63,417 nucleotides of DNA from a virus: IMG/VR virus record IMGVR_UViG_3300047552_000359, positions 1-63,417 of that record, one strand, 5' to 3'. The notes under the pieces are model-generated. The model did no database searches. It saw only the letters and a list, made by a program, of their open reading frames with translations, and was not told the origin of the DNA. The position numbers and the translations under genes are program-made. Shown here one piece after another: positions 2,058-23,851 of this stretch (its first letter is position 1; each line of letters opens with the position of its first letter).

Positions 2058-2655
2058 GAAGAAACTCTTTGAAGCGTATGGTCTTGAGTCCAAGGCATCT
2101 GCTATATATGATAATATATTCAACCACTTCACACCTAAACAACTTCAGAATATACAGCAGGCGTTGATTGATATCATCTTCTTAGGTGATTGTGAGTTGT
2201 TCAAAGAAATCAACGGCATCTATAAGAGTGAGTCTAAGCATGAGCTTAGTGAACAGCACTTGAAAGAGATTCAAGTCTTTCATCGTAGTGCTATGGCCTT
2301 TAGTAGAAGGAAGGCTAAAGAATCTGATTCAGTAATTGCGCTATTAGCTGAGTTGGAGCAGGTAGCTAACCCAGTTAGCCAGATAGTTTCTACTCCTACT
2401 CCTGCTAGTAGTACAGCAGATAGAAAAGAAAGAACAGTTAAACCAACAAAAGAGTTGACCGAAAAAGATGCAGAGAAGTTAATAGTAAAAGCACTGGATG
2501 TTATTAAGAGGAATGATGTTAAAGCCCTACTTCAACAAGCGTTGATTCAATTGAAGTTGAGTGTACCCATAGCACAAGGTAAACACTTCTGTGCTACTGA
2601 GAATCTCAATGAAACATTTACATCTGAAAGTAAAGGAAGTGCTTGGTGGCTATAA
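2047..2655 (+). CDS. hypothetical protein, 202 aa
   Basis: Starts after AAAGGAGAGCACTA. Residues 1-100 are predicted helical. A Pro/Ser/Thr-rich linker follows at about 113-125 (STPTPASSTADRKE), and then a Lys-rich helical segment (residues 130-172). Two helical domains joined by a flexible linker suggest a regulatory or scaffolding protein. I do not recognise it. The C-terminus overlaps the next gene's start. Confidence 0.7.
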   Translation: MDVKKKLFEAYGLESKASAIYDNIFNHFTPKQLQNIQQALIDIIFLGDCELFKEINGIYKSESKHELSEQHLKEIQVFHRSAMAFSRRKAKESDSVIALLAELEQVANPVSQIVSTPTPASSTADRKERTVKPTKELTEKDAEKLIVKALDVIKRNDVKALLQQALIQLKLSVPIAQGKHFCATENLNETFTSESKGSAWWL

Positions 2656-2930
2656 TAAAAGAATTATTCGAAGGATTAACTTATATAAATATAGAGGGTG
2701 ATAAAAGATTTAGAAAGCTAAATGAAGGTGAAGAAATAATAGAAGGAGACTTCTTTTTTGAAAGCGGTAAATACGATGTTTGTTTTGTAGGTAAATCTAA
2801 ATATACTCCCTTACGGATAGGGGGTAAAGCACAACATGAGGATAGTGGTTATGTTAATGTGTATCGGGTATTAACAACACCGAAAGGAAACAGACGACCA
2901 TGGTTACTTTCTTTAAGTGGTATACATTAG
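2643..2930 (+). CDS. tagged small protein, 95 aa
   Basis: Starts with TTG at 2643 or GTG at 2646, after TAAAGGAAGTGC. The fold is not recognised, but the N-terminal half reads (F)RKLNEGEEIIEGDFFF. The same (Y/F)RxLxxGExIxxGD pattern appears in tagged proteins at 12,205, 12,435 and 14,603, so these form a small paralogous group. The shared peptide TPKGNRR is at 2877-2897, followed by ten extra residues that overlap the next gene. This is the first tagged gene in the genome. Confidence 0.7.
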   Translation: MVAIIKELFEGLTYINIEGDKRFRKLNEGEEIIEGDFFFESGKYDVCFVGKSKYTPLRIGGKAQHEDSGYVNVYRVLTTPKGNRRPWLLSLSGIH

Positions 2931-3076
2931 CTGTATTTTTCTCGCTTATGCTTAGGATATATATCATAAGTTATGAATCTTATCCAAGAAAGATTAGTAA
3001 AGATACTGATGTATGGAGCGCAATTCTTAGTGTACCTTACCTTGCATTTCTTTTATTCTTATGGTTGGCATCATGA
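2900..3076 (+). CDS. small membrane protein, 58 aa
   Basis: Two hydrophobic stretches (residues 4-20 and 41-56) flank a short polar loop containing KISKDTD, consistent with a two-helix inner-membrane protein. The ATG lies 11 bases after the GGA of the upstream tag codons and the stop overlaps the ligase ATG (ATGA). The function is unknown. Confidence 0.6.
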   Translation: MVTFFKWYTLAVFFSLMLRIYIISYESYPRKISKDTDVWSAILSVPYLAFLLFLWLAS

Positions 3077-3930
3077 AACCTATGCTTGCCTGTACTGTAT
3101 CAATAGATGAAGTAAATTACCCTTGCTATGTATCACCTAAGTTGGATGGTATACGTTGCCTTGCTATTAATGGGGTAGCATACTCACGTTCAATGAAAGA
3201 GATACGCAACAAGCACATCCAGAAATTCTTTCAAGATAATAATCTTGATGGGTTGGATGGTGAGTTGATTGTAGGTAGTACATTCTCTGAAACTTCTTCT
3301 GCTGTTATGGCAGTAGGTGGTACACCTGACTTCTCCTATCATGTCTTTGATTATCCTGCCTCTCATGCTACATTTAATGTACGCTTGTATAAACTTAAGG
3401 CGTATATTAAATCTCTCCAGCTAACTCAGTTAGTTCTTGTTCCTCAGTATGAAATAAATAATAAAGAAGAATTAAATAAGTATATAAGTTTGTTTCTTTT
3501 TCAAGGATATGAGGGTGCTATTACTCATTATCTTTATGGCTTGTATAAGCAAGGTAGAAGTACGCCAACAAGTCAGGAGCTACTCAAGTTCAAGCCCTTC
3601 CTTGATACAGAAGCAGTATGTATTGATTACATTGAACAGATGCAGAACAATAACGACTCATTCGAAGATGAGTTAGGCAGAACAAAGAGAAGCACACATC
3701 AAGCAGGTATGGTAGGTAAGGATACACTTGGTGCGTTAGTAGTAGACCACCTTGAGTTTGGTGTTCTATCTATAGGCACTGGCTTTGATGATGCTACTCG
3801 TAAAGCAATCTGGAATAATAAAGATAACATCTTAGGTAAGTTAATTAAGTTTAAGTATCAGGCAGAGGGCATGAAGGATAAACCTAGGTTTCCTGTGTAC
3901 TTAGGGATACGAGATGAATTGGATACATAA
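3073..3930 (+). CDS. ATP-dependent DNA ligase
   Basis: Seals nicks in phage DNA during replication and repair. The adenylation motif SPKLDGIRC (motif I, K-x-D-G) is near residue 22. DGLDGELI follows as motif III, YEGAI fits motif IV, and LLKFKPF is motif V (K-x-K). The C-terminal part looks like the OB domain. At 285 aa it is a minimal phage-type ligase without accessory domains. An ATG four codons upstream (3061) is possible, but the start at 3073 overlaps the previous stop in ATGA and fits the coupled layout. Confidence 0.93.
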   Translation: MKPMLACTVSIDEVNYPCYVSPKLDGIRCLAINGVAYSRSMKEIRNKHIQKFFQDNNLDGLDGELIVGSTFSETSSAVMAVGGTPDFSYHVFDYPASHATFNVRLYKLKAYIKSLQLTQLVLVPQYEINNKEELNKYISLFLFQGYEGAITHYLYGLYKQGRSTPTSQELLKFKPFLDTEAVCIDYIEQMQNNNDSFEDELGRTKRSTHQAGMVGKDTLGALVVDHLEFGVLSIGTGFDDATRKAIWNNKDNILGKLIKFKYQAEGMKDKPRFPVYLGIRDELDT

Positions 3931-4129
3931 TATAAGAGAAGTACAATCAGAATTAGATTATGTAATTGGACGTTACCAAATTGATTGTAAAGAATGTCCA
4001 CATTTATGTATGAATAGTGGTGGCGATTGTTTATTAATTGGTTTAGATATAAGTGGTTGCCCTTCTAAAGCCAGTGTTATTTTATTTAACACCTCTAAAC
4101 GTACACCCAAGGGAAATAGAAAGGTATGA
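3914..4129 (+). CDS. tagged Cys-rich small protein, 71 aa
   Basis: The start overlaps the ligase end. The body has CKECPHLC, a further GDC, and then SGCPSKAS before the C-terminal RTPKGNRKV (tag at 4103-4126). The following gene has the same arrangement (Cys-rich core, C..GCPTRKS, tag), so the two are tandem paralogues. Five cysteines suggest a zinc site. Function unknown. Confidence 0.7.
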   Translation: MNWIHNIREVQSELDYVIGRYQIDCKECPHLCMNSGGDCLLIGLDISGCPSKASVILFNTSKRTPKGNRKV

Positions 4130-4368
4130 ATGTTCCACAATTAATATTACATAAATTAAGCAACTTAACTTACTCTAAACGTGGAGAACCTATTGTGTCT
4201 TGCTTTTGTAATAGTTTACAACTTACAAATTGTCCTCATGTAAATCAATCTGCTATGCTATGTTTAATAGCAGATTTATGTATAGGTTGCCCTACAAGAA
4301 AGTCTTATCTTGACGCATATTCAAGAACCCCTAAGGGTAATAGATGGGCACGAGTGCGTAATGACTGA
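4126..4368 (+). CDS. tagged Cys-rich small protein, 80 aa
   Basis: Paralogue of the preceding gene: CFCNSLQLTNCPH, then CIGCPTRKS, then RTPKGNRW (tag at 4327-4344) plus a seven-residue extension. The ATG overlaps the previous stop (ATGA). The extension after the tag is unusual and runs into the tiny gene that follows. Confidence 0.7.
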   Translation: MNVPQLILHKLSNLTYSKRGEPIVSCFCNSLQLTNCPHVNQSAMLCLIADLCIGCPTRKSYLDAYSRTPKGNRWARVRND

Positions 4369-4432
4369 TAACTTTATGTTACTTATATTACTACTCTTTG
4401 CGTTAGGTGTACTAATTAAAGCGAGGAACTAA
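4361..4432 (+). CDS. putative membrane micropeptide, 23 aa
   Basis: MTDNFMLLILLLFALGVLIKARN would be a single transmembrane helix with a positive C-terminal end. The ATG overlaps the end of the upstream gene and there is no clear independent ribosome site. It is plausible only because its neighbours are similarly packed. Confidence 0.35.
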   Translation: MTDNFMLLILLLFALGVLIKARN

Positions 4433-4434
4433 CG

Positions 4435-4761
4435 ATGTTAGTTAAGATAGTAGGGGATTGTATCCATTATACCGTCGATGGTGTACCTAGGATATTTAAA
4501 TTAGGAGATGTTTATAAAATAGTAGATAGGCCCACTCACATTAATACAACACCACTTATATGGCCTGTTGGTACATTAGTTAAGATATATTCCTTAAGAT
4601 TATTTCTAGATGGTTTAAGTACATCTTGGTATACAGACGCAAACTACTCTCCAGTTGTAGATTGTACTAGTGTAGGTGAGGCAAAGACCTCCCTTAGATG
4701 GTGGGTAAGTTTACATTGTCTACAAAAAACTAAAACACCTAAAGGTAATAAGATAGTATAA
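4435..4761 (+). CDS. tagged small protein, 108 aa
   Basis: The protein is beta-rich (LVKIVGDCIHYTVDGVPRIFKLGDVYKIV...), reminiscent of small SH3-like barrels with a GD turn. It ends KTKTPKGNKIV (tag at 4735-4758). The weak ribosome site GCGAGGAACTAACG precedes ATG. No recognised family. Confidence 0.7.
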   Translation: MLVKIVGDCIHYTVDGVPRIFKLGDVYKIVDRPTHINTTPLIWPVGTLVKIYSLRLFLDGLSTSWYTDANYSPVVDCTSVGEAKTSLRWWVSLHCLQKTKTPKGNKIV

Positions 4762-4941
4762 ATGCCAAAACAATTTGAGTATAAAATATTTTATCTTTGG
4801 ATTGATAAGGAGGATGTATTAAATAGGTTAGGTAAAGAGGGATGGGAATTAGTTTATGTAGATGGGAATGAATGCTATTTCAAAAGAGAGTTAAATGTAG
4901 TACAACCCAACATAATCAATAAGGAGAAAATCAATGAGTAA
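4762..4941 (+). CDS. DUF4177-like small protein, 59 aa
   Basis: The pattern FEYKIFYLW...LNRLGKEGWELVYVDGNECYFKRE matches the short DUF4177-type proteins (an N-terminal strand, LGxEGWEL, then a strand ending in F-K-R), whose function is unknown. The ATG lies directly after the stop of the tagged gene. It lacks the tag. The C-terminus overlaps the amidoligase start. Confidence 0.65.
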   Translation: MPKQFEYKIFYLWIDKEDVLNRLGKEGWELVYVDGNECYFKRELNVVQPNIINKEKINE

Positions 4942-6592
4942 GATTAAAATCAATGTCGTAAGTGAAATAGTAGATGTAGTGAAATTTACTATTGCAGAAT
5001 CACCAAGAAACTCAGACTTTACGTACACTTCTGGGTATTTTATGCTCATTTCTGATGCAAGTCCTGAGTTTGTAGACAACTGCCTTTATGTATTAGGTAG
5101 TGATTCTACTGGTGATAGGGATGTACTGGAAGCATCTACAAAAGACTTTGCAAAACTCCTTGTAAGTATTGAGGAGTATAACGTACAAGTTTGTGGTTGC
5201 AAATCTAATATCCCTGACTTAATTAGTTGCTGTGGTCATCTGTATCTCAATGCAAAGGATTGTGCTTGTAAATTCCATACTTGCGCTATCTGCTCTAAAG
5301 TAAATCATGAAGATGACTCAAAATCTATAAATGTTATGGGTGACATTGTTTATATTTGTACGGAACACATTGAAGATAAAGTCTGCCTCATTTGTGGCAG
5401 TACAAATTATATGCTTCATCCTCATGCACAGCATGGTACTAATGTGCAAGTTTGTGAGCGTTGCATTAATAGTAACGTGCAGTTTGGACATCAGCACAAC
5501 TACTCATATAAGCCATCCCCCCTCTTCCATGATATAGTCAAAGGTAGGATTAAAAAGTATTCACTGGATGCCTTTAGGGATGATGTAGATAAAATTAATC
5601 GTAAGTTCTGGATGGGGCATGAAGTAGAGCAGCAGTTTCCGCAGGGAGCTAATCGTGGTATGTTGATTGGCGATATGGAATCTAAGCAGGGTAAGTTGAT
5701 TTACTGTAAATCTGATTCATCTATAGGTAATGGTACTGAGTGCGTTACTCATCCATTCTCTTGGGAATTCTATAAAAAGCGTAATTGGGATGGTATCCTC
5801 AATAAACAGGTAAAAGATTGGAGAAGTAGTGGTTGTAGTGTAGGCCATCATGTGCACATAAACAGAGGGGCATTCACAAGGTTGCATATGTATCGTTTTA
5901 TTAAATTCATGGCCACTAATCGAGCTTATGTTGAGTTCATTTCTCAGCGTAGTATGGAAAATTACTGCAAGTTTTCAGGAGATTCCCTCGCAAAAACTAA
6001 AAATAAGAGGAGCAGTGACCACTGTGATTTTATTAACATGACTCCTAATACAATAGAGTGGCGTGCTTTTGCTTCTCCTATTAACCTACTTGAGTTCAAA
6101 AAGAATGTTGAGTTTATATATGCTGCATATCTCTTCACAAAAGACCTCTGTAATAAAGAGTTGAAGAGTTCTTTATTTGAGTCTTATGTTATTACAAATA
6201 CAGAGGAGTACCCTAATCTCGCATCATATATTCATAATAAAAGCTCTGATAATGCGAGTCGATTCACACCTAATGAGGAGTATTCTGGGAATAGTCCCTC
6301 TAATATTAGGGCTGATGTGTGCTTTATTTGTAATAAGGGGGTAGTTAACACCACACAAATAATAAATCATGAGTTGGATACGCATGTTTATATTTGTGAA
6401 GAGCATATGAAAAATATCCCTATATGTAGTCATTGTGGAGCACCTTTTATCGGTGTCCAGAAGTTTGATGAGGATGGTGAATTGGTTTGTGAATTGTGCC
6501 ATGTTGATTTGCAATCTAGTAGTGATGTTCATGAAGTTAGGACATGTGAATACGACGATGAGATAGAGTACGATGAAGATTGTGATGATTAA
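4934..6592 (+). CDS. amidoligase-like enzyme with zinc-ribbon insertions, 552 aa
   Basis: The middle part (about residues 230-400) fits amidoligases of the carboxylate-amine ligase superfamily: MGHEVEQQF, KSDSSIGNGTECVTHPF, GHHVHIN and TIEWRAF supply the acidic and basic residues expected to bind ATP and metal. Cys/His clusters lie on both sides. These are CCGHLY...CACKFHTCAIC, CLICGSTNY and CERC in the N-terminal third, and CFICNKGV, CSHCGAP and CELC at the C-terminus. They suggest several treble-clef or zinc-ribbon units. The acidic tail is DDEIEYDEDCDD. The ribosome site is AAGGAGAAAATCA. Followed by GATase and ATP-grasp genes, it probably forms amide bonds on peptides or proteins. Confidence 0.8.
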   Translation: MSKIKINVVSEIVDVVKFTIAESPRNSDFTYTSGYFMLISDASPEFVDNCLYVLGSDSTGDRDVLEASTKDFAKLLVSIEEYNVQVCGCKSNIPDLISCCGHLYLNAKDCACKFHTCAICSKVNHEDDSKSINVMGDIVYICTEHIEDKVCLICGSTNYMLHPHAQHGTNVQVCERCINSNVQFGHQHNYSYKPSPLFHDIVKGRIKKYSLDAFRDDVDKINRKFWMGHEVEQQFPQGANRGMLIGDMESKQGKLIYCKSDSSIGNGTECVTHPFSWEFYKKRNWDGILNKQVKDWRSSGCSVGHHVHINRGAFTRLHMYRFIKFMATNRAYVEFISQRSMENYCKFSGDSLAKTKNKRSSDHCDFINMTPNTIEWRAFASPINLLEFKKNVEFIYAAYLFTKDLCNKELKSSLFESYVITNTEEYPNLASYIHNKSSDNASRFTPNEEYSGNSPSNIRADVCFICNKGVVNTTQIINHELDTHVYICEEHMKNIPICSHCGAPFIGVQKFDEDGELVCELCHVDLQSSSDVHEVRTCEYDDEIEYDEDCDD

Positions 6593-6661
6593 AGTGTTTT
6601 GTAGTATTCTTAGTAGTAGACTTGTTAATAACTACAATCATTAATAAAAGGAGTAACATAT

Positions 6662-7654
6662 ATGTGTATTGCAATTGCTAAGTACAAGGGTAACTTCATC
6701 ACCAAAGAAACGCTGCAAAATTGTTGGGATTCTAATCCCGATGGAGCAGGGTTTGCCTATAAAAATGAAGAGGGGTCTGTTGTAGTACAGAAGTTTATGC
6801 GATTTGAAGATTTCTATAAAGCGTATGCTGAGATTGATAATCTTTATGGAGATACTCAAGATATGGTGATTCATTTTAGAATCACAAGTAGGGGAGCTAC
6901 TGCTATCTACAACTGCCATCCCTTTATTATTGATGATAAGATGGCATTTATTCACAACGGAACCATCACGTCAATGCCCATCAGCAAAGAACATGATTAC
7001 TCAGATACATTCATGTTCAATGAGTTGATTCTTAAAAAGTTGCCTGCGGGTTGGGAAGATAGCATTGGAGTAAAGCATCTTATAGAGGATATGATATCTT
7101 ACTCTAAGATTGTAGTACTTCATGTAGATAAAGGATTATATATTTACAATGAATCTAAGGGAGTTAAGTTTGGGGGTAATTGGTATTCTAATACTACATA
7201 TGAACCCTCACGAGTAATATACAGAGGCAAAAATTGGTGGAGGAAAGCAGATAGTGATACAAAAGATATAAAGTATATATCTCAGCATGAAGATTGGGAT
7301 TGGGAGAAAGAAACCTACAAAGAATATAAGGAGAGAATGGACGCAGAAGATAAAGAAAAAGCAAGACAAGAAGAACTATTCTTTCAGGAGTTAGCAGAGG
7401 ATGCAGATGAAGGTACTAAAGAAGTTGAGAATATTAGTGCCTCTATTCTCATCCCCTGTGATAAGTGTAATCATTGGGTAGACGAAGAGGATATGTATAC
7501 AATCAACACATCTAATATACCTCAGAAAATTGAGTTCTATTGTGAGGATTGTGTTATTGATTTGGAACGTAAATATATTCCTTATGAGCCTATCTATTTA
7601 GATGAAGCTAGGCAGAGGTCGCTATTCTTGCGTAAAGGAGTTAAGGTTCAATGA
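6662..7654 (+). CDS. class II glutamine amidotransferase-like protein, 330 aa
   Basis: Begins Met-Cys, putting the N-terminal nucleophile Cys where Ntn glutamine amidotransferases need it. IHFRITSRG, CHPFII and FIHNGTI follow at about residues 80-108, matching the substrate-binding loops of the class II GATase fold. It would release ammonia from glutamine or act as an amidohydrolase. A charged helical segment lies near 215-255, and CDKCNHW...CEDC near 270-300 looks like an added zinc ribbon. The ribosome site is AAAGGAGTAACATAT. Second gene of the amidoligase trio. Confidence 0.85.
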   Translation: MCIAIAKYKGNFITKETLQNCWDSNPDGAGFAYKNEEGSVVVQKFMRFEDFYKAYAEIDNLYGDTQDMVIHFRITSRGATAIYNCHPFIIDDKMAFIHNGTITSMPISKEHDYSDTFMFNELILKKLPAGWEDSIGVKHLIEDMISYSKIVVLHVDKGLYIYNESKGVKFGGNWYSNTTYEPSRVIYRGKNWWRKADSDTKDIKYISQHEDWDWEKETYKEYKERMDAEDKEKARQEELFFQELAEDADEGTKEVENISASILIPCDKCNHWVDEEDMYTINTSNIPQKIEFYCEDCVIDLERKYIPYEPIYLDEARQRSLFLRKGVKVQ

Positions 7655-7893
7655 TTAATCCTGACTTAATAAAAAAGTTGCGGGGAATAGATAAGGCTGC
7701 TGCAGATTATTTGGAATTTGTAGTAGCAAAGTCTCCTAAACAGTTAGCATATCCTCGCATGTGTAATACTATAGACTCCTGTATGACTTGGGCAGATACA
7801 CCACAAGGACATGAATATTGGAATGACTTAGATAGTATAATTGGAAGAGTGCCTTATAACCCAAAAACCCTGAAAGGAAATAGAAGAATATGA
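7651..7893 (+). CDS. tagged small protein, 80 aa, variant tag
   Basis: The ATG overlaps the end of the GATase gene (ATGA). The body is helical (LIKKLRGIDKAAADYLEFVVAKS) with an acidic middle. It ends KTLKGNRRI at 7864-7890, the shared peptide with Leu in place of Pro. It sits between the GATase and ATP-grasp genes, inside the trio, so it is a candidate substrate or partner; that is only inference. Confidence 0.7.
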   Translation: MINPDLIKKLRGIDKAAADYLEFVVAKSPKQLAYPRMCNTIDSCMTWADTPQGHEYWNDLDSIIGRVPYNPKTLKGNRRI

Positions 7894-8642
7894 AACTTTA
7901 TATGTATCCTTATAATATGGGTAGTGATTCCGCAAAGAAGATAGCACAAGCTTTGGAAATAGTTAGAGTATTTCCTGATGGTAAATATAAATCTAAAGAA
8001 GGTCATGCTATTATTAATTGGGGTAATAGCAGTCTACCTTCTTGGCATAAGGCAGATACAAAGTACCTTAATCACCCAACTCATGTTGGTAATGTTACTA
8101 ATAAGCTTAGGTGTTTTAATATACTGCAAAGGGCTGGTATTGCTATTCCTAAGTACTTCAGTTCTAAGCGGGATGTTATCCATTATACCGAAGGTCTTTC
8201 CGAATTCCCTATTATTTATTGCCGTACTAAATTGAGTGGGCATAGTGGTGAAGGTATTGTGCTAGCTAACAGTGTTAGTGAGTTAGTAGATGCCCCACTC
8301 TACACTGTATATTTTAATGCAAGAAAAGAGTGGCGAGTTCATGTATGTAATGGTAAGGTAATTGACTTTGCTAAGAAGGCCTACAAGAATAATGAAAGAC
8401 CTGATAGGCTTATTAGGAATGTGGCTAATGGTTGGATTTTTAGGCGGGGTGGTTTAGAGTTGCCTGATTATTTAGCTAAGGAATCTATTAAAGCTATTGA
8501 GGCTTGTGGTTTGGATTTTGGTGCAGTTGATATAGCTGAAGATAGGGAAGGAAATATGTGTGTTTATGAAATTAACTCTGCTTGTGGTGTAGGTGGGGAT
8601 ACTACATTAGAGAATTATGTGAGGGCTTTCAATGAGTACTGA
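7890..8642 (+). CDS. ATP-grasp ligase-like protein, 250 aa
   Basis: The order of features fits a small ATP-grasp enzyme. AGIAIPKYF starts the ATP-grasp domain near residue 90. PIIYCRTKLSGHSGEGIVLA (about 128-147) is the glycine-rich loop. EWRVHVCNGKVI and later GAVDIAEDREGN...VYEINSACGVGG supply the metal-binding D, E and N residues. Such enzymes join a carboxylate to an amine through an acyl phosphate. The start overlaps the tagged gene and lies 11 bases from its GGA. Third member of the predicted peptide-modification trio. Confidence 0.85.
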   Translation: MKLYMYPYNMGSDSAKKIAQALEIVRVFPDGKYKSKEGHAIINWGNSSLPSWHKADTKYLNHPTHVGNVTNKLRCFNILQRAGIAIPKYFSSKRDVIHYTEGLSEFPIIYCRTKLSGHSGEGIVLANSVSELVDAPLYTVYFNARKEWRVHVCNGKVIDFAKKAYKNNERPDRLIRNVANGWIFRRGGLELPDYLAKESIKAIEACGLDFGAVDIAEDREGNMCVYEINSACGVGGDTTLENYVRAFNEY

Positions 8643-8820
8643 TAAAATTGAAGTAGGTGATATTATTATCTCTAGTCATGTTAGGGGTAAGATAGTTTAT
8701 ATAGTTGATGATAGACTTTATGTAGAGTTAGAGATTGCAGGATTAGGTTGGAATAGTGAAATAAGTGATTATATGATAGTAAAGAAAGGATTAACTCCTA
8801 AAGGAAACAGAAGATTATGA
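8632..8820 (+). CDS. tagged SH3-like small protein, 62 aa
   Basis: KIEVGDIIISSHVRGKIVYIVDDRLYVELEIAG reads like a five-strand SH3-like barrel with a VGD turn. Related layouts occur in the tagged proteins at 9,014 and 10,327. It ends LTPKGNRRL (tag at 8794-8817). The start overlaps the ATP-grasp gene end. Confidence 0.7.
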   Translation: MSTDKIEVGDIIISSHVRGKIVYIVDDRLYVELEIAGLGWNSEISDYMIVKKGLTPKGNRRL

Positions 8821-9035
8821 ATTATTTTGATGCATTTCCTTCTGAATATGGTAAATACTTTAGTAAACAAGATGAATTATTTCCTGTAATATGTACTAAT
8901 TGCAATAAATCATTTAGGTTACATTTTGAATTTTTACGTGTAGTATATTGTAATTCAAGACATAATGACAAATTTAATGCACCTAGGTTACTTACTCCAA
9001 AGGGGAATAAGAGATGCAGTATACCTTCAAGATAG
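8817..9035 (+). CDS. tagged zinc-binding protein of the FPxEY family, 72 aa
   Basis: The layout is F-P-S-E-Y, then ICTNCNKSF, then a second Cys/His patch, then FNAPRLLTPKGNK (tag at 8994-9011) with a seven-residue extension. Two further genes (10,599 and 10,778) share FPKEY, the ICxxC pair and the (F/S)xAPxL-x-TPKGN ending, so the three are paralogues. Possibly a small nucleic-acid-binding zinc protein. Confidence 0.75.
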   Translation: MNYFDAFPSEYGKYFSKQDELFPVICTNCNKSFRLHFEFLRVVYCNSRHNDKFNAPRLLTPKGNKRCSIPSR

Positions 9036-9268
9036 GCGATAGGGTTATAATAAATAAAGACTGTCCAAGCTACGATGATGGCATAACCGGCACATTGTTT
9101 CATATATGTCCAGAAAAAGATGCAGGATTAATGCATAGGGATGATGGGGATGGTTGGGATGATAATGAAGATGGCATAGGAGAAGTAACTAATGCTTGGT
9201 ACGTTAATTTATGTAGCTTAAGCCCACTAAATACACCAAAAGGAAATAGACGATATGTTAAGCAATAA
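9014..9268 (+). CDS. tagged SH3-like small protein, 84 aa
   Basis: FKIGDRVIINKDCPSYDDG followed by ITGTLFHI and WYVNLCSLSPL fits an SH3/KOW-like barrel. A very acidic loop (DDGDGWDDNEDG) sits in the middle. It ends NTPKGNRRYVKQ (tag at 9233-9253). The start overlaps the upstream extension, eight bases after that gene's GGG. Confidence 0.7.
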   Translation: MQYTFKIGDRVIINKDCPSYDDGITGTLFHICPEKDAGLMHRDDGDGWDDNEDGIGEVTNAWYVNLCSLSPLNTPKGNRRYVKQ

Positions 9269-9294
9269 AGAAAGAGATAAATAAAGGAGAGGTG

Positions 9295-10080
9295 ATGGCT
9301 GAGGAAGTAAAGTCCAATTGTCCTCGTTGTGGTGATACAAGAGAAAGATTATACACAAAGAAAGTACAAGGTGGTTATGTACGTTTTTGTCATAATGCAA
9401 ATTGTTATAAAGACGATTCATTTGTAAGAGATAAGCAACAAAGCCCCACAGATATTATACAACAAGCAAACCTTCTACATAAAACACAAGAGTCCTTTGA
9501 ATATGAAAATAAGCTATTAGAACTACCTTGGGATTTTTCTACAGAGTTATCTAGGGAGTGTATCTTATGGTTAAGTAAATATAATATTACATCAGAAGAA
9601 GTAAGAGAATTCAATATAGGATTCTCTAAAAGAATGAATAGATTAATACTACCTGTATATAATGAAGATGGTGTGTTAATTTATTATCAAGGTAGGAACT
9701 TAGGTAATGTGTCTAAGCATAATCCTAAGTATTTGAATGTACGGCAGATTGGTGCTAAAAATGTATACTTCAATAACTACACTCGTGCCGTAGAATCCCC
9801 TAATGCCTTGTTTATAGTTGAGGATATATTATCAGCTATAAAAGTAGGTAGGGTATATAAGAGTAAAGCCTTACTAGGGTCATACTTCCCTAAGGATTTT
9901 TATTCCACTATACCGTTAGATATAGAGGCCATTTATATTTGGTTAGATGATGATAAGTATCTAACTGCGTTAGCTGAGGCTAAGAGATTAAAGTTGTTGA
10001 CAAATAAGTTTATCCGTGTTATAAAGACACAACAAGACCCTAAGTGCTATGATGCACAATATATTAAGGAGCTTATATGA
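9295..10080 (+). CDS. DNA primase, zinc finger and TOPRIM
   Basis: Makes RNA primers for phage replication. The N-terminus has CPRCGDTRERLY...FCHNANCYK, a four-ligand zinc finger. A middle region (LPVYNEDGVLIYYQGRNL) leads into a TOPRIM domain: ALFIVEDILSAIKVGR holds the catalytic Glu and AIYIWLDDDKY the DxD motif. It is a DnaG-type primase, at 261 aa shorter than cellular ones and lacking a helicase-binding domain. A GTG lies one codon upstream (9292); ATG is preferred after AAAGGAGAGGTG. The helicase gene is nearby. Confidence 0.9.
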   Translation: MAEEVKSNCPRCGDTRERLYTKKVQGGYVRFCHNANCYKDDSFVRDKQQSPTDIIQQANLLHKTQESFEYENKLLELPWDFSTELSRECILWLSKYNITSEEVREFNIGFSKRMNRLILPVYNEDGVLIYYQGRNLGNVSKHNPKYLNVRQIGAKNVYFNNYTRAVESPNALFIVEDILSAIKVGRVYKSKALLGSYFPKDFYSTIPLDIEAIYIWLDDDKYLTALAEAKRLKLLTNKFIRVIKTQQDPKCYDAQYIKELI

Positions 10081-10241
10081 ATGAGCATGATTTAAAAAAG
10101 TTAAGATATCATCTAGTAAATAGAGGGGAATTAATTAATAATACTGCAGTTAAGGTAGGTGGGACTCGGAATATGTATGTACCCGTTGTTATGAGTATAG
10201 GTAGGTATTGGAGTAATGGATTAGTACCTATGTGGCAATAG
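10077..10241 (+). CDS. small hypothetical protein, 54 aa, possibly truncated
   Basis: The ATG overlaps the primase stop (ATGA). The product (NEHDLKKLRYHLVNRGELINN...) has no recognised domain and stops at TAG. The shared tag appears about 60 bases later in another frame, inside the tiny gene at 10,250. This gene may therefore have lost its tagged end by a frameshift or a stop. Confidence 0.5.
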   Translation: MNEHDLKKLRYHLVNRGELINNTAVKVGGTRNMYVPVVMSIGRYWSNGLVPMWQ

Positions 10242-10249
10242 GTAGAACA

Positions 10250-10336
10250 ATGGCTAGAAATAGGGATACAGGTATTGTATGGCACATACGGCTTATAGGC
10301 CTAACTCCGAAAGGGAATAAGATAATATGCAAATAG
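10250..10336 (+). CDS. tagged fragment, 28 aa
   Basis: Only MARNRDTGIVWHIRLIG precedes LTPKGNKIICK, so this is mostly the tag (10,304-10,321). It overlaps the next start. It could be a real micropeptide or the out-of-frame end of the preceding gene. It shows that the tag coding persists even where its carrier is minimal. Confidence 0.45.
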   Translation: MARNRDTGIVWHIRLIGLTPKGNKIICK

Positions 10337-10599
10337 GAGATAAAGTATCATTCGACCATGATGGATTAACTGGCACAGGAACTATTTTATGTATAGATTT
10401 ATATAGTAGAGGTAATAGTAATTGGGTAATTAAATTGGATGGTGACCCTGATAAAGGCTGGAGTAGAGATTTTGATAGTCCAATACACGCAGTATTTAAA
10501 GAGAAGTACCCACATTTAGGTTATATTAGGGGTTTATGGAGCGTACCTGAGAGAAAGTTAAAATCAATGCTTACACCTAAGGGTAATAGGAGGATATAA
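10327..10599 (+). CDS. tagged SH3-like small protein, 90 aa
   Basis: MQIGDKVSFDHDGLTGTGTILCIDL...NWVIKLDGD has the IGDKV turn and strand pattern of an SH3/KOW-type barrel, close to the gene at 9,014. It ends MLTPKGNRRI (tag at 10,573-10,596). The ATG lies 11 bases after the GGG of the previous tag. Confidence 0.72.
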   Translation: MQIGDKVSFDHDGLTGTGTILCIDLYSRGNSNWVIKLDGDPDKGWSRDFDSPIHAVFKEKYPHLGYIRGLWSVPERKLKSMLTPKGNRRI

Positions 10600-10781
10600 T
10601 GTGGAATAGTTATTTCCCTAAAGAGTATTGGGATATGCGCGAAGAAGATTTATTTAATGTTATTTGTACAAGATGTAACATTAGATTTGGTGCACACAGT
10701 TCTGAGGGATGTCCGGATGAACTAGGAGCTTTTAGTGCCCCGCCTTTAAAGACACCAAAAGGGAATAGAAAAATTAAATGA
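10599..10781 (+). CDS. tagged zinc-binding protein of the FPxEY family, 60 aa
   Basis: YFPKEYWDMREEDLFNVICTRCNIRFGAH is followed by CP, then FSAPPLKTPKGNRKIK (tag at 10,752-10,775). The FPKEY motif and ICTRC pair align with its neighbours at 8,817 and 10,778. An AGGAGG formed by the last codons of the upstream gene serves as ribosome site. Confidence 0.75.
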   Translation: MWNSYFPKEYWDMREEDLFNVICTRCNIRFGAHSSEGCPDELGAFSAPPLKTPKGNRKIK

Positions 10782-10990
10782 ACTCATGGATGCATATATT
10801 TCCAAAGGAATATACTAAACATACAGATTATGAAATATTAGCCATAATTTGCGAAAATTGTGGAGAAAGATTTGGTCAACATATTGGAGCTAGATGCCCT
10901 GAGTGCCTAAGCATAGCCGTTAAAAATGGCAATTATAACTTTATAGCACCTAAATTAACTACTCCTAAAGGAAACAGACGTGTCCTATAG
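10778..10990 (+). CDS. tagged zinc-binding protein of the FPxEY family, 70 aa
   Basis: IFPKEYTKHTDYEILAIICENCGERFGQH and CPEC give four cysteines for one zinc ion. It ends FIAPKLTTPKGNRRVL (tag at 10,961-10,981). Third member of the family and the clearest zinc ribbon. Its last codons overlap the GTG of the helicase. Confidence 0.75.
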   Translation: MNSWMHIFPKEYTKHTDYEILAIICENCGERFGQHIGARCPECLSIAVKNGNYNFIAPKLTTPKGNRRVL

Positions 10991-12215
10991 TCCTGAATTG
11001 TATATACTAAAGTTATTTATTAAAGATAAGGATTCATTTGATTTATATTACCCACAAATAAAGGAATTTAATTATGATGTAGAAATTAAAACAATACTAT
11101 TCTGTATTAATAAATATTATGTTAATTACCCTACTCACTTATACATAGGGAAAGAAGAATTAAGAACCTATTACAACAGCATGTATCCACTAGATAAAAA
11201 TAAGCAGATAGTCTCTGATATCTTGGATACAATCTATAGTATTGAAGTATCAGATAGTATCATAAGGGATATTATAAAGAATATAATAGAAAAAGAAATA
11301 AGCCTTGCCATAATAGGTAAGCTAACTTCTGTAATAACAGAAAATAAGTATGGGGTATTACCTACTGTTACTGAGGATATAGCTAAATTTGACCAGTTAA
11401 TTGTCCAACAAGACCCTGAGGAAATCTTTGTATCATCTGATATAGAAGAACTACTGGAAATTAAGAAACAACAGGGTATTATTAAATGGAGGAATCCTGC
11501 CATACAAGAAGCCCTTAAAGGAGTATGTGGGGCTACCTTAGGTCACGTATTTGCTAGACCTGAGACAGGTAAGACATCTTTTCTAGCTTCTGAATTAACT
11601 TATATGTCTAGGCAATTTGCTGAGGATGAGTGCGCATTATGGTGTAATAATGAACAGGAGAAATCTAAAGTAGTTATGCGTAATTATACAGCAATGCTTA
11701 ATCAACCTGAGGATGTTATCATAAACAACATAAGCAGGGCTAGGGATGCTTACCTTAAGAATGGTGGATATAAGATTAAACTTTACGATAATGCTTATAT
11801 CTCAATAGACATGCTACGCAAGTTAATTAAAACCTTTAGACCTAGGATTGTTGTAATAGACCAAGGAGATAAGGTAATTTACAGTGGGGCATCTAAATTA
11901 GACGGACACGTTAGACTTAAGGAATTGTATAGACAGTTTCGTGAGTTAGCTAAAGAATTTAATACACATATACTCACTGTTGGACAAGCAAGTGGTGAGG
12001 CAGAAGGAAAGCGTTGGCTTCAAATGACTCACATGGATATGTCTAAAACAGGTAAGCCGGGGGAAATGGATTATGTATTAGGCATAGGCAAAGAGTCTAC
12101 AGAAGGGGAGGATACTGGATTACGCTACTTTCACTTCTGTAAGAATAAAGAAGGTAAACACTCTAAATTTGTTCTACAACTAAATTCAGATACAGGGAGA
12201 TACAATGAGATATAG
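10980..12215 (+). CDS. DnaB-like replicative helicase
   Basis: Unwinds DNA at the replication fork. The C-terminal half is a RecA-type ATPase: GHVFARPETGKTSFLASE (Walker A, about residues 188-205), WCNNEQEKSKV, and PRIVVIDQGDKV (Walker B, about 294-305), followed by THILTVGQASGEAEG and a C-terminal motif region. The N-terminal 150 residues are helical, as in DnaB family proteins. The GTG start follows the tag codons of the previous gene. At 411 aa it matches single-domain phage helicases. Primase, helicase and polymerase lie close together. Confidence 0.88.
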   Translation: MSYSPELYILKLFIKDKDSFDLYYPQIKEFNYDVEIKTILFCINKYYVNYPTHLYIGKEELRTYYNSMYPLDKNKQIVSDILDTIYSIEVSDSIIRDIIKNIIEKEISLAIIGKLTSVITENKYGVLPTVTEDIAKFDQLIVQQDPEEIFVSSDIEELLEIKKQQGIIKWRNPAIQEALKGVCGATLGHVFARPETGKTSFLASELTYMSRQFAEDECALWCNNEQEKSKVVMRNYTAMLNQPEDVIINNISRARDAYLKNGGYKIKLYDNAYISIDMLRKLIKTFRPRIVVIDQGDKVIYSGASKLDGHVRLKELYRQFRELAKEFNTHILTVGQASGEAEGKRWLQMTHMDMSKTGKPGEMDYVLGIGKESTEGEDTGLRYFHFCKNKEGKHSKFVLQLNSDTGRYNEI

Positions 12216-12438
12216 AGAAATAGCAGGTGATGAAAAAATTAAAGAAGGTTACGTCTACTCTTATAAGAAACTGCCATTAACAAAATTAGGAGAGATAGTA
12301 TACACAGCCGACCTAGAAATAAGAACAAATAAGTGTAGGTGTAGTATAGGAAAGACAATAAACACACATAGAGTAGTAACACCTTATTATGTGTATGAAT
12401 TATTAAACACTACTCCAAAAGGAAATAAAATAAGATGA
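12205..12438 (+). CDS. tagged small protein, 77 aa
   Basis: MRYREIAGDEKIKEGYVYSYKKL belongs with the (Y/F)RxLxxGExIxxGD group (2,643; 12,435; 14,603). It ends TTPKGNKIR (tag at 12,412-12,435). The start overlaps the helicase end. Confidence 0.7.
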   Translation: MRYREIAGDEKIKEGYVYSYKKLPLTKLGEIVYTADLEIRTNKCRCSIGKTINTHRVVTPYYVYELLNTTPKGNKIR

Positions 12439-12665
12439 GTACTTTAATGCATGAAGGAAGGCGGTATAGGCGTATGTTAGAGGGGGAAAAATTAACCAAT
12501 GATTGTATATATACAGATGCTCCCACACATGGTTATTTATATTCTTGTAGATATATGAATGGTCACGCTATTAAACCTGAATGGCTTCTACATGATGCAC
12601 ATAGATTTTATATGCTAGAAACAAAAACACCAAAGGGGAATAGGGTATGCCATTATTTGAAGTAG
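12435..12665 (+). CDS. tagged small protein, 76 aa
   Basis: RRYRRMLEGEKLTNDCIYTDAP repeats the N-terminal pattern of the preceding gene, so these are tandem paralogues. The tag TPKGNRV is at 12,627-12,647 with a five-residue extension (CHYLK) into the next gene. Confidence 0.7.
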   Translation: MSTLMHEGRRYRRMLEGEKLTNDCIYTDAPTHGYLYSCRYMNGHAIKPEWLLHDAHRFYMLETKTPKGNRVCHYLK

Positions 12666-12802
12666 TATGTATAGAGTGTCATAATAAAGAGACTGTATTA
12701 GTTCACCATAGTGAGATACATAAAATACATTGTGCTATATGTGGCTCACCTACACAACAATTAGTAAGTCCTATAGCAAAGACACCGGAAAGGTGGAAGT
12801 AA
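12647..12802 (+). CDS. zinc-ribbon small protein, 51 aa, degenerate tag
   Basis: Two Cys pairs, VCIECHNKE and HCAICGSP, 19 residues apart, make a classic small zinc ribbon. It ends AKTPERWK (12,779-12,799), which at DNA level resembles the shared tag with one shift (ACACCGGAAAGG). The start follows the previous tag by eight bases. The stop overlaps the next ATG. Confidence 0.65.
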   Translation: MPLFEVVCIECHNKETVLVHHSEIHKIHCAICGSPTQQLVSPIAKTPERWK

Positions 12803-13131
12803 TGCGTATTACATTTAAGTATATAACTCAATTGGCACAAAGGGCTGGAATTAGAGTTAGGCATTGTAGGGAACATAGGTTTGTATATGGTAGTAGGGGT
12901 TATTTAGTATACGATGGTGGTTTATTTCCAAGTTGGTTTGGTGTATTAACAGATGTTGAGAGATATATTAAAGATAAATACACTACACCTAAAGGTAATA
13001 TTAAACGAAAAGAAGAACCTAAAATACAAGAAATAAGAGGAGTAGGCTCTAGTTTTAGTACTAGCTTTACTACTAGGGCTAGACCTACATGGTATAGTGA
13101 CAATGAGCCAACTGAAATATCTGGCTTTTGA
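12802..13131 (+). CDS. tagged protein with C-terminal extension, 109 aa
   Basis: The first 60 residues form a compact basic domain (RITFKYITQLAQRAGIRVRH). TPKGNIKRK follows at residues 62-70 (12,985-13,011), but unlike its relatives it continues for about 40 more residues (Ser/Thr/Arg-rich) that overlap the DNA polymerase start. A longer in-frame start exists upstream (12,730). The ATG at 12,802 overlaps the previous stop, and GGAAAGGTGGAAGTA is its ribosome site. Confidence 0.65.
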   Translation: MRITFKYITQLAQRAGIRVRHCREHRFVYGSRGYLVYDGGLFPSWFGVLTDVERYIKDKYTTPKGNIKRKEEPKIQEIRGVGSSFSTSFTTRARPTWYSDNEPTEISGF

Positions 13132-14302
13132 TTTTGAGACAACTCGCACCTATAATATGGGGTATGATGATAGGGCATACCCCATCTTACTAGGGATAAT
13201 AACATCTACAGGAGATAAATACTCTTGGATTTTTAATCACGATACTGTAACCCCATTGGATATAAATAAAGCAAGACAAGAAATACAGGATTTAATAGAT
13301 AACACACAAGTAATTATAGCTCACAATATTAAGTTTGATTTACATTGGCTGAGGAGATTAGGTATTGATTATAGTAAAGTTAAGTTATATTGTTCTCAGA
13401 CTGCAGAGTATCTTATTAATGGGGAGAATAATAGGGTTAGGTATGCTCTAGCAGAAACATCCCTTCGTTATGGGATACCTGCTAAACATGATGCTGTTAA
13501 GGATTGGTGGGATGCGGGGTACGAGACTAACGAGATACCTTTAAATATCTTAGTGCCATATTGTATGCAGGATACAGCTAACACGTTAGCATTGTATCAG
13601 AAACAGCAATCCATTATACTGTCGAAGAATTTAACTAAGCTGTGTAACTTATCTTGTGAGCTAATACGAACTCTACAGGAAATAGAATGGAATGGTATGA
13701 AGCTAGATGTTGAGCTTTGTACTAATTACTCTACTAGTTATGGAGAACAAATTGAAAATCTGTATACTAAACTTAATTCTTTTATCCGGTCTAATATTCT
13801 GGACTTACATGAACTGCCCTTAAGAGATACAGCTAATAAACCACTACCTAATTTTGGTTCAGGAGAGCAATTATCTGCATTACTATTTGGAGGTGAGTTA
13901 AAATATAAAGGGAGGGTAGCTGGTGCTAAAGAAGGAACAACTAAAAATGGGACAGTCATATTACGAACTACTGGACTGGGACTCGTTCCTAGAGATGGAA
14001 CGGAAACTAGCGTTGATGGCTATTATCAAACCGATAAGGCTCAACTACAAGGACTTAAAGTAAAGAATAAAACACAACGTGTATTTCTAGAACAGCTATC
14101 AGAATTATCTAAATTAGAGAAGATGAAGGGCACTTATTTTGATGGTATGCTAACACATGTATATAAAGGAATAGTTCACTGTAATATAAAGAATACACGT
14201 ACAGTAACAGGTAGACTATCTGTTACAGACCCTGCACTTCAAACCATACCAAGGGGGAGTACAAGTCCAGTAAAACAAGTCTTCATATCTAGGTACAATT
14301 AA
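13103..14302 (+). CDS. family A DNA polymerase, N-terminal half (exonuclease and start of palm)
   Basis: This is the 3'-5' exonuclease and first part of the polymerase domain. LAFDFETT (Exo I), IIAHNIKFDLHWL (Exo II) and YCMQDTANTL (Exo III) are all present. The thumb follows, and then TGRLSVTDPALQTIP, the conserved segment before motif A. Translation stops at TAA (14,300-14,302) after QVFISRYN. The polymerase reading resumes in frame beyond the stop as YGGKLIIL up to about 14,329, then is lost. The remaining motifs lie 2.9 kb away at 17,238-19,163. A GTG two codons upstream (13,097) is an alternative start. Confidence 0.9.
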   Translation: MSQLKYLAFDFETTRTYNMGYDDRAYPILLGIITSTGDKYSWIFNHDTVTPLDINKARQEIQDLIDNTQVIIAHNIKFDLHWLRRLGIDYSKVKLYCSQTAEYLINGENNRVRYALAETSLRYGIPAKHDAVKDWWDAGYETNEIPLNILVPYCMQDTANTLALYQKQQSIILSKNLTKLCNLSCELIRTLQEIEWNGMKLDVELCTNYSTSYGEQIENLYTKLNSFIRSNILDLHELPLRDTANKPLPNFGSGEQLSALLFGGELKYKGRVAGAKEGTTKNGTVILRTTGLGLVPRDGTETSVDGYYQTDKAQLQGLKVKNKTQRVFLEQLSELSKLEKMKGTYFDGMLTHVYKGIVHCNIKNTRTVTGRLSVTDPALQTIPRGSTSPVKQVFISRYN

Positions 14303-14385
14303 AATTATGGAGGTAAATTAATTATTCTTAAAAATTATATGCACCTAAATTAAAAAAGCTTACGTTTTCAAATAATCTTACACCT

Positions 14386-14613
14386 ATGTATTTAATTCAA
14401 TTAGGTATATTTCCTATCTATCTTGATATAGATAGAAGCAGTTATTGGGAAGAAAATCTATGGAGATTTAGTTGGAAATTTACAGCTATACAATATGCTA
14501 CTGCTGATAAAGAACGAGCTACTACTATGCTTGCTAGATGTACATATTGTACAACAGTAGTATACACAACTAAGAAAGGAAATACATTGAGGATAAATAA
14601 AGATGCCATTTAA
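14386..14613 (+). CDS. hypothetical protein with degenerate tag, 75 aa
   Basis: The frame is open upstream to about 14,330, directly at the point where the polymerase reading is lost. The first ATG is at 14,386 without a good ribosome site, so this gene may be N-terminally truncated by the event that split the polymerase. CTYCTTVVYTTKKGNTLRI near the C-terminus contains TKKGNT (14,569-14,586), a degenerate version of the shared peptide. Confidence 0.5.
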   Translation: MYLIQLGIFPIYLDIDRSSYWEENLWRFSWKFTAIQYATADKERATTMLARCTYCTTVVYTTKKGNTLRINKDAI

Positions 14614-14836
14614 ATTATTAGAAGAAAATGAGATTATTTGTGTAGGGGATAGGTGTTTACAGACCAATAATATTCCTACACCTAGTGAGTATGTGTTTAG
14701 GCAGATGTTTCCTTGTTGGGGGAGTGTGGGTTATACACCTCGTAAATATAGAGAACGATTTGGTATTGAGTTTTATGTTATGCGAGAGATTAAATTAACT
14801 CCTAAGGGGAATAGAATATATGACTCTAAAAGATAA
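14603..14836 (+). CDS. tagged small protein, 77 aa
   Basis: FKLLEENEIICVGDRCLQ matches the (Y/F)RxLxxGExIxxGD group. The C-terminus reads KLTPKGNRIYDSKR (tag at 14,798-14,815), overlapping the sigma factor start by a few codons. It is the last tagged gene in the genome. Confidence 0.7.
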   Translation: MPFKLLEENEIICVGDRCLQTNNIPTPSEYVFRQMFPCWGSVGYTPRKYRERFGIEFYVMREIKLTPKGNRIYDSKR

Positions 14837-16989: not shown

Positions 16990-17244
16990 ATGATAAAGAA
17001 AAAATTAGAAATTTATTCAGCAGAGTGGGTAGAAGAAGCAACTAAAGACTATTCAGAATTTTTATATGAACCTTGCTCTTCTTGTAAATTAAGAGACTAT
17101 TTTAGTGAGAATAATGAGTATATTTGTTTAGTTAGCGATGGAAGTGATTTACCTAATTGCCCATATTATATGAAACACTCATGCTCTAACGAGAATCCAA
17201 ACATGAGTATCGTTAATAGCGAAAAGGAGGTGGGTCTGTGTTAA
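16990..17244 (+). CDS. Cys-rich hypothetical protein, 84 aa
   Basis: CSSCKLRDYFSENNEYICLV and NCPYYMKHSC give five cysteines, suggesting a zinc-binding domain. The last codons contain AAGGAGGTG, an almost ideal ribosome site that serves the polymerase C-terminal half starting at 17,238. The TAA at 17,242-17,244 overlaps that start, so this gene and the polymerase fragment are probably coupled. Confidence 0.65.
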   Translation: MIKKKLEIYSAEWVEEATKDYSEFLYEPCSSCKLRDYFSENNEYICLVSDGSDLPNCPYYMKHSCSNENPNMSIVNSEKEVGLC

Positions 17245-22212: not shown

Positions 22213-22334
22213 TTAGACGAAGTATACATACTATAATGGATGTTATGTTGAATTTAAGTTTATGTTTTGCATTAATAGCATTTGGTTTGGCTATGTTTAA
22301 AATTGCTAAATCATTTGTGGTATCAGGTATATAA
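22209..22334 (+). CDS. small membrane protein, 41 aa
   Basis: One hydrophobic helix (LNLSLCFALIAFGLAMF) with a basic N-terminus. The ATG overlaps the previous stop and its TAA overlaps the ATG of the next gene. Confidence 0.5.
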   Translation: MIRRSIHTIMDVMLNLSLCFALIAFGLAMFKIAKSFVVSGI

Positions 22335-23851
22335 TGAAAACACATGCTATCATACCAGATTGTCAAGTTAAAGAGGGAGTACCTATAGACCACCTGCTTT
22401 GGGCAGGTTCTTATATAGCAAGCAAACACCCTGATGTTATTGTTAATTTAGGTGATTTTGCTGACATGCCTTCCCTCTCTTCCTATGATGTAGGCAAGAA
22501 GTCATTTGAAGGTAGGAGATATACTAAGGATATAGATGCAGCGCATAAAGCAATGCAATTATTCCTATCCCCTATTAGACAAGAACAAGCTAGGTTAAAA
22601 AGGAACAAAGAAAAGAGTTGGAATCCTAGGATGATTATGGTATTAGGTAATCATGAAAATAGGATAAATAAAGCTATTAATAATGACTCTAAACTAGAAG
22701 GATTAATTTCCGTAAAGGATTTAGGTTATGAAGATTATGGGTGGGAGGTCATTCCTTATCTTGAGCCAATTGTCGTGGATGGGGTCGCTTATTGTTTAGA
22801 AGAGAATCATAAGGTATTAACAAAAGACTTGCAATATGTGAAACTTAAAAATATACAAGTCGGGGATGAATTATTAGCATTTGAAGAAGACAATCAAGAG
22901 TCTAATTGCGGTAGAAAGTATAAAACAAGTATTGTTACAAAAAAGCGAATAACTCCTGCAGCAGTTTATAAGGTAGTATTATCTAATGGTAAAGTATTTA
23001 CAGTAACAAGTGACCATAGATGGCTAGTTAGAAATACTAGAGGGGGTACTGGATGGAAACACACCCATGAACTTAAGCCATCTGACATAATACCTCGTTA
23101 CTTTGATGAGTGGGAAACTGTAAATACAAAGGATGCAGGATACTTAGCAGGAATATTTGATGGAGAGGGGTATATATCTAAACCTAATACTAAACAAGGG
23201 GGCATACAAATAGGATTTGGTCAAAATGATGGATTAGTTTTAAACAAGAGTTTAGATATAATTAAAAAATTAAATTTTAAAACATTAGAGTATTATAGTA
23301 GAGATTGCAGACAAATTAAAATAGGAGGTACTTCCGCGGATAAAATTAAATTTTTAGGTAGTATTAGACCTATTAGACTTATTGAAAAGTTTAAGCCAGA
23401 AATGTTAGGTCGTATGCAGACTATTGAAAATTCCTATGTAGCATCCGTTACGTATCAAGAAGAAGCAGCTAATATAGTAGAAATAGAAACTACTACATCT
23501 ACATTAATTGTAGATGGGTATGCTCACCACAATTGCCATTACTTTGTCTCAGGGGTATTGGGACGGGCTGTTACTTCCGCTAGGATGCTTCTTACTAAGC
23601 ACCATATGTCTTGTGTTGCTGGTCACCAACAAGGTAGGGACATAGCCTACAGCCAACGTGCAGATGGTAAAAGGATGACAGGCATTATTAGTGGTTCCTT
23701 TTATCAGCACGACGAGGAGTATTTAACAGCACAAAATAACGAGCATTGGCGTGGCATATGGTTTGCCCACGAAGTATCTGACGGTGCATTTGATGAGATG
23801 CCTTTGAGTATGGAATATCTTAAATCTAAATATACAAGGAGTGTAAATTAA
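22334..23851 (+). CDS. metallophosphoesterase containing an intein, 505 aa (258 aa after splicing)
   Basis: The phosphoesterase parts read IIPDCQVKEGV, VIVNLGDFADMPSLSSYD (GD), MVLGNHENR (GNHE, about residue 105) and CVAGHQQGRD (GHxxG). They flank an intein at residues 154-400. The family is a phage calcineurin-like phosphoesterase of unknown substrate. The intein splits the sequence between VDGVAY and CHYFVSGVLGR, right beside a histidine that probably binds metal, so the enzyme is inactive until splicing. There is no obvious ribosome site besides coupling to the upstream gene. Confidence 0.88.
   Translation: MKTHAIIPDCQVKEGVPIDHLLWAGSYIASKHPDVIVNLGDFADMPSLSSYDVGKKSFEGRRYTKDIDAAHKAMQLFLSPIRQEQARLKRNKEKSWNPRMIMVLGNHENRINKAINNDSKLEGLISVKDLGYEDYGWEVIPYLEPIVVDGVAYCLEENHKVLTKDLQYVKLKNIQVGDELLAFEEDNQESNCGRKYKTSIVTKKRITPAAVYKVVLSNGKVFTVTSDHRWLVRNTRGGTGWKHTHELKPSDIIPRYFDEWETVNTKDAGYLAGIFDGEGYISKPNTKQGGIQIGFGQNDGLVLNKSLDIIKKLNFKTLEYYSRDCRQIKIGGTSADKIKFLGSIRPIRLIEKFKPEMLGRMQTIENSYVASVTYQEEAANIVEIETTTSTLIVDGYAHHNCHYFVSGVLGRAVTSARMLLTKHHMSCVAGHQQGRDIAYSQRADGKRMTGIISGSFYQHDEEYLTAQNNEHWRGIWFAHEVSDGAFDEMPLSMEYLKSKYTRSVN
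22793..23533 (+). other. intein with LAGLIDADG homing endonuclease
   Basis: Starts with Cys (CLEENHKVLT, block A, with VGDEL following). Block B is VTSDHRWLVR (T-x2-H). The endonuclease domain has DAGYLAGIFDGEGYIS as a LAGLIDADG motif, and a second half is less clear. It ends in YAHHN, followed by Cys of the C-extein (block G). At 247 aa it is small for an endonuclease-bearing intein, so the nuclease may carry only one LAGLIDADG motif or be in decay. Confidence 0.92.

Follow-up and report, generated by a model that had tools for sequence, protein, structure and literature searches.

The window, by which we mean the whole 63,417-base IMG/VR virus record IMGVR_UViG_3300047552_000359, carries an early block on the + strand and its virion genes on the - strand. 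The early genes come in the order amidoligase, class II glutamine amidotransferase (GATase), ATP-grasp ligase, primase, DnaB-like helicase and split PolA. Small early proteins of several types in this uncultivated phage share a peptide, TPKGN (hereafter the tag; the rest of each protein is its body), which is found 15 times between 2877 and 14815, every copy on the + strand and in frame (Table 1). In at least 13 cases the tag stands 8-17 residues before the C-terminus of an early protein of 60-108 amino acids. The two exceptions are an internal copy (12985) and a copy placed after a frameshift (10304).

An earlier note on this DNA had reported the same C-terminal peptide on at least fifteen small proteins, and the count holds. 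Its statement that the peptide ends or nearly ends these proteins is right for the copies near the C-terminus and wrong for the one at 12985, which is 48 residues before the stop and hence not C-terminal. Fourteen copies read TPKGN[RK] and that at 12985 reads TPKGNI. The DNA pattern ACNCCNAARGGNAAYARR has 14 matches on the + strand, all in frame as TPKGN[RK], and none on the - strand or for a reversed control. When the C-termini of all ORFs (open reading frames) were scanned with BLOSUM62, 15 matches with scores of 26-34 were obtained; 0.17 are expected by chance per genome at a score of at least 24, and a chance origin of the copies is rejected. The net charge is +2 to +4 for every tagged tail listed, and the bodies range from -9 to +4. 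There are no TPKGN tags in the window outside the 2877-14815 block. The tag is also absent from the core enzymes (ligase, amidoligase, GATase, ATP-grasp, primase, helicase, PolA and sigma), in line with what had been noted for ligase, primase, helicase, polymerase and sigma.

Table 1. Genes with complete or degenerate copies of TPKGN, and untagged genes of the same block
Gene product	Coordinates	Strand	Tag	Remarks
(Y/F)RxLxxGE protein	2643..2930	+	TPKGNR, 2877-2894	tail RPWLLSLSGIH
Cys-rich protein	3914..4129	+	4103-4120	
Cys-rich protein	4126..4368	+	4327-4344	no downstream start within Shine-Dalgarno range
108-amino-acid protein	4435..4761	+	TPKGNK, 4735-4752	
Amidoligase-like protein	4934..6592	+	untagged	28% to MEP402 gp06; weak Amidoligase_2 match
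Class II GATase-like protein	6662..7654	+	untagged	40.5% to MEP402 gp07
Helix-hairpin-helix-like small protein	7651..7893	+	degenerate, TLKGNRRI, 7867-7890	very weak Pfam match
ATP-grasp ligase (RimK / R2K-like)	7890..8642	+	untagged	38% to QDWS535 gene 39
SH3-like protein	8632..8820	+	8794-8811	
FPxEY zinc protein	8817..9035	+	TPKGNK, 8994-9011	
SH3-like protein	9014..9268	+	9233-9250	next start at 51 nucleotides, with its own Shine-Dalgarno
Short ORF, 28-34 amino acids	10232..10336	+	TPKGNK, 10304-10321	ends in the tag
SH3-like protein	10327..10599	+	10573-10590	
FPxEY zinc protein	10599..10781	+	10752-10769	
FPxEY zinc protein	10778..10990	+	10961-10978	AlphaFold2 residues 64-70 have pLDDT <50
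(Y/F)RxLxxGE protein	12205..12438	+	TPKGNK, 12412-12429	
(Y/F)RxLxxGE protein	12435..12665	+	12627-12644	
FmdB-like zinc-ribbon protein, 51 amino acids	12647..12802	+		ends KTPERWK; DNA 12782-12799 is ACACCGGAAAGG
Protein with internal tag	12802..13131	+	TPKGNI, 12985-13002	~43 residues after tag; next start at 101 nucleotides
Small protein	14386..14613	+	degenerate, TTKKGN, 14566-14583	
(Y/F)RxLxxGE protein	14603..14836	+	14798-14815	

Conservation of the peptide and of its carriers

The conservation was analyzed codon by codon over the 15 copies. Codon positions 1 and 2 show no change in 150 cells, and at position 3 the majority base is departed from in 33 of 75. As the earlier note had observed, Thr is written with three codons, Pro with four and Gly with three. 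The pairwise third-position differences were compared with random draws from the codon usage of the genome, and the observed and drawn values are 0.59 and 0.64 for Thr, 0.70 and 0.61 for Pro, 0.51 and 0.50 for Lys, 0.71 and 0.70 for Gly, and 0.34 and 0.32 for Asn. The third positions thus match the genome usage at all five codons and the silent sites are saturated; since the amino acids are invariant at the same time, it is the peptide that is conserved and not the DNA. Strong selection at the protein level keeps TPKGN, as seen among the copies of one genome. The claim that the peptide is kept, and not merely some Shine-Dalgarno (SD)-like bases, is borne out by the unchanged first and second positions, the single reading frame and three intact copies that have no start codon near them. 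The outcome which the earlier note had set against itself, namely that AAGG alone is kept with Thr, Pro and Asn free to change, is not seen within this genome.

The bodies were compared after removal of the tag, leaving out the ORF at 14386. The three FPxEY bodies are clearly related (z 10-14, ~40% identity), the SH3-like pair 9014/10327 has z 5.0, the Cys-rich pair has z 3.9, and similarity within the (Y/F)RxLxxGE group is weak. No clear relation was found between the bodies of 4435, 7651 and 12802 and the remaining ones, and similarity across most of the groups (zinc, SH3-like, Cys-rich and other) was not detectable. The tag is therefore carried on about seven body types. The description of the carriers as unrelated proteins stands for these groups and has to be given up within them, where there are paralogues, most clearly in the FPxEY trio. 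Because even the best-conserved group has bodies only ~40% identical and most groups are mutually dissimilar, the bodies change faster than the tag does. A search of 36,427 ORFs from loci that were related or matched by pattern gave no homologue of the bodies. Four bodies were searched against GenBank phages; three gave no matches and the fourth gave E values of about 4 or worse. Searches in PHROGs and Pfam gave nothing informative. An AlphaFold2 model of the FPxEY protein 10778..10990, a modest one built on a three-sequence alignment, has a predicted local distance difference test score (pLDDT) of mostly 55-75 in the body and below 50 in the tail, which suggests that the tag tail of this protein is flexible or extended. 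The model of an SH3-like protein (pLDDT 47) was too poor for use.

Some copies are atypical. The short ORF 10232..10336 is probably where the preceding (Y/F)RxLxxGE-like ORF 10077-10241 ends after a -1 shift; the shift which parts that ORF from the TPKGNK tag lies between ~10217 and 10241, and it may mean that the gene has decayed, that the sequence contains an error or that the shift is programmed. In the degenerate copy TLKGNRRI the replacement of Pro by Leu amounts to one C to T change. At the end of the zinc-ribbon gene 12647..12802 the DNA, ACACCGGAAAGG, resembles a tag into which a single base has been inserted.

Neighbouring genes and relatives of the phage

The nearest relative by terminase (72%) is the IMG/VR record IMGVR_UViG_3300020045_002177 (G001); a close relative of the window phage was not found in GenBank. 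The early layout recurs in LUZ24, MEP402, Alcaligenes phage QDWS535 and the IMG/VR contigs L300 and L301, whose proteins are ~25-40% identical to those of the window. The slots between the conserved replication genes hold tagged genes in the window and other small genes in L300-L302. Predicted promoters are fewer in the tagged region than in shuffles and therefore tell nothing about it.

To find the tag elsewhere, genomes were scanned for C-terminal k-mers common to several ORFs, a scan which finds it immediately in the window. Nothing tag-like was found in LUZ24, MEP402, MW202796, QDWS535 and MW202697, in 80 PolA relatives, in nine TerL relatives covered in full or in large part, or in the helicase relatives. 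A single-protein helicase scan and an alignment-based FPxEY search gave no relatives carrying the tag, and the DNA pattern of the tag had no match in 42 TerL-relative records, many of which are fragments lacking the early block. IMG/VR was searched with three 15-base patterns which jointly cover 8 of the 15 copies, with the own record and near copies excluded. The 106, 17 and 55 stretches matched were all single and isolated, approximately the number expected by chance, and none had a repeated C-terminal peptide. Had there been a relative with a comparable set of tags, clustered matches would very probably have appeared. Within what these searches sampled, the tag appears to be confined to this lineage. 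The earlier note had further proposed that the tag has spread between genes. This is not supported: no tagged relative was found, and neither were extended DNA identity or repeats around the copies, so that recent DNA duplication or a recombination boundary is rejected as the origin. The copies may instead be inherited paralogues with fast-changing bodies.

Several other features of the record were noted. The predicted amidoligase, class II GATase and ATP-grasp ligase genes stand in one block, 4934-8642, in a LUZ24-like arrangement. The family A DNA polymerase is encoded in four pieces (13097-14302, 17238-17447, 18208-18480 and 18882-19157): part I is followed by ~3 kb in which other genes lie, a sigma factor among them, and then by part II in three exons, between which lie an HNH gene (17456-18154) and a group I intron (RF00028, 18458-18835). 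A metallophosphoesterase-like protein (22334-23851) contains an intein-like insert of ~230 amino acids that is missing from its homologues in G001, QDWS535 and MEP402. The ribonucleotide reductase gene (25787-28271) is split by a segment that contains a homing-endonuclease-like ORF (26702-27301), and a very similar ORF adjoins the reductase gene in L301. A tRNA-Leu(taa) is located at 469-555, close to the left end of the record, and a protein of 2539 amino acids on the virion strand (36639-44258) is probably an internal or ejected protein.

Possible roles of TPKGN

The explanation which we favour, with moderate confidence, is that TPKGN is a trans-acting docking or targeting peptide, a constant tail on small, fast-changing accessory early proteins that would have one partner in common. 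The tail would be constant, flexible, basic and C-terminal, and a putative partner, from phage or host, would dock the tagged proteins or carry them to a single site. Each kind of body, zinc, SH3-like, Cys-rich or other, would have a job of its own and the tail would supply the common destination, for which the virion, the replisome, the ribosome or a host target are candidates. We infer recognition in trans by a single partner. The strict T-P-K-G-N followed by free residues points to a specific pocket rather than to general basic charge. Since the tagged genes fill variable slots between conserved replication genes, they probably have accessory functions, for example in taking over the host or in countering its defences. 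Of the roles that the earlier note had listed, a recognised tag remains the best inference given the conservation at the protein level; a role in degradation is not favoured, since between 8 and 48 residues separate the tag from the C-terminus in the different proteins.

Several points weigh against this explanation. The recognising partner is only putative, the tagged proteins are known here from genome sequence alone, a second tagged genome was not found among the sampled relatives so that conservation is seen among the copies of one genome, and in 12 of the 15 copies the AAR-GGN codons are able to act as SD for the next gene. A more far-reaching version, which we regard as tentative, hypothesizes a protein-sorting code of the lineage's own: most of the small accessory early proteins would carry a five-residue C-terminal address that one dedicated receptor reads, and new accessory proteins would be plugged in by gaining the tail.

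Common ancestry is an unlikely alternative to a docking peptide. It holds that the carriers are old paralogues in which the final turn and the basic tail are retained because they serve the fold of each protein itself or its contact with nucleic acid, with no shared partner. The relationships within the FPxEY, SH3-like and Cys-rich groups and the basic character of the tails agree with this, but the groups lack clear similarity to each other, and the tag falls in a low-confidence, extended segment of the sole usable model. Moreover, a basic tail should tolerate exchange of K and R, of N, S and K, or of T and S, and none of the 15 copies shows any.

A role in cis in translation is also unlikely. 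The tag would be a coupling cassette in which AARGG is the SD of the next gene and the nascent TPKGN perhaps helps the ribosome to restart. In 12 of 15 copies the next start codon is found 8-16 nucleotides past the GG of AARGG, most often 12, that is, in SD range, and the AAR-GGN codons therefore probably serve both as codons and as SD for the next gene. There is a precedent in the Cluster K mycobacteriophages, in which start-associated sequences (SAS), short repeats with an SD core, stand near the starts of many non-structural genes (PMC3203893). However, the copies at 4327, 9233 and 12985 have their next start 25, 51 and 101 nucleotides away and TPKGN is still complete, which rejects the SD as sole cause. 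It should also be noted that Thr, Pro and Asn are encoded by bases which are not part of the SD, that the invariant Asn codon (AAY) after GGN blocks the stronger GGAG or GGAGG, and that a single reading frame is kept throughout with 8-48 codons from tag to stop. The SAS elements differ further in being conserved as DNA (GGGATAGGAGCCC) directly upstream of starts, whereas TPKGN is conserved as a peptide with saturated silent sites.

It is improbable that the tag is a substrate handle whose Lys or Asn is modified, or whose tail is extended, by the phage amidoligase, class II GATase and ATP-grasp ligase. All three enzymes are encoded within the tagged block, and R2K ATP-grasp ligases, of which R2K.2 occurs in caudate phages, have been proposed to modify proteins with peptide tags (PMC4431377). 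Yet LUZ24, QDWS535, L300 and L301 have the same enzymes, and MEP402 most of them, in a matching arrangement ahead of the primase, helicase and PolA genes, and a shared C-terminal peptide was not found in any of these; the link of the tag to this enzyme set is thus not supported. RimK acts at the exact C-terminus, where the tag is not located. That TPKGN is a DNA or RNA element (a binding site, recombination boundary or processing site) translated by accident is very improbable: it is repeated and located at gene boundaries, but its saturated variation is confined to third positions in one frame on one strand, there are no intergenic or out-of-frame copies, and the DNA around the copies has no extended identity.

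Comparison with known systems

The tag was compared with described systems that sort or mark proteins. A C-terminal degron of the ssrA/ClpX type does not fit, as it is read at the free C-terminus at a fixed distance and here the distance to the stop is 8-48 with varying end residues. A sortase or CTERM sorting signal, in which a hydrophobic segment and a basic end follow the motif, does not fit either, because the residues after the tag are few and form no membrane segment. PicA of the nucleus-forming phages is a case of phage-encoded selective sorting of phage proteins (PMC11087766). It differs in that a surface, and not a terminal signal sequence, is likely recognised; the 63 kb podovirus-like window phage, in addition, has no sign of a phage nucleus, for which no search was aimed. 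As the earlier note had supposed, no described TPKGN tag was found, and the literature on TPKGN gave nothing relevant; this suggests that a common docking or sorting tag of this kind has not been described before.

The nearest model for the docking explanation is given by the internal proteins of T-even phages, in which diverse anti-defence bodies share one conserved capsid-targeting sequence (CTS), a constant short peptide on highly diverse small phage proteins which acts in trans toward one place (PMC3012670). Similarly, one peptide occurs in 15 copies in the window, distributed over about seven groups of bodies. The CTS stands at the N-terminus, from which the prohead protease removes it; TPKGN, in contrast, is C-terminal (8-17 residues from the end) or internal (once 48), is basic, has five residues and is found on genes of the early replication block. 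As terminus and position differ we do not class TPKGN as a CTS, and the likeness to the T-even proteins is an analogy. For most of the small early proteins of phages the function is not known. If the docking explanation is true, the tag links more than 12 of them through one partner, so that their role can be tested as a set, and the partner of TPKGN will reveal where the tagged proteins act. Beyond the internal proteins of the T-even phages, the tag would then be a natural example of interchangeable proteins that share one short address.

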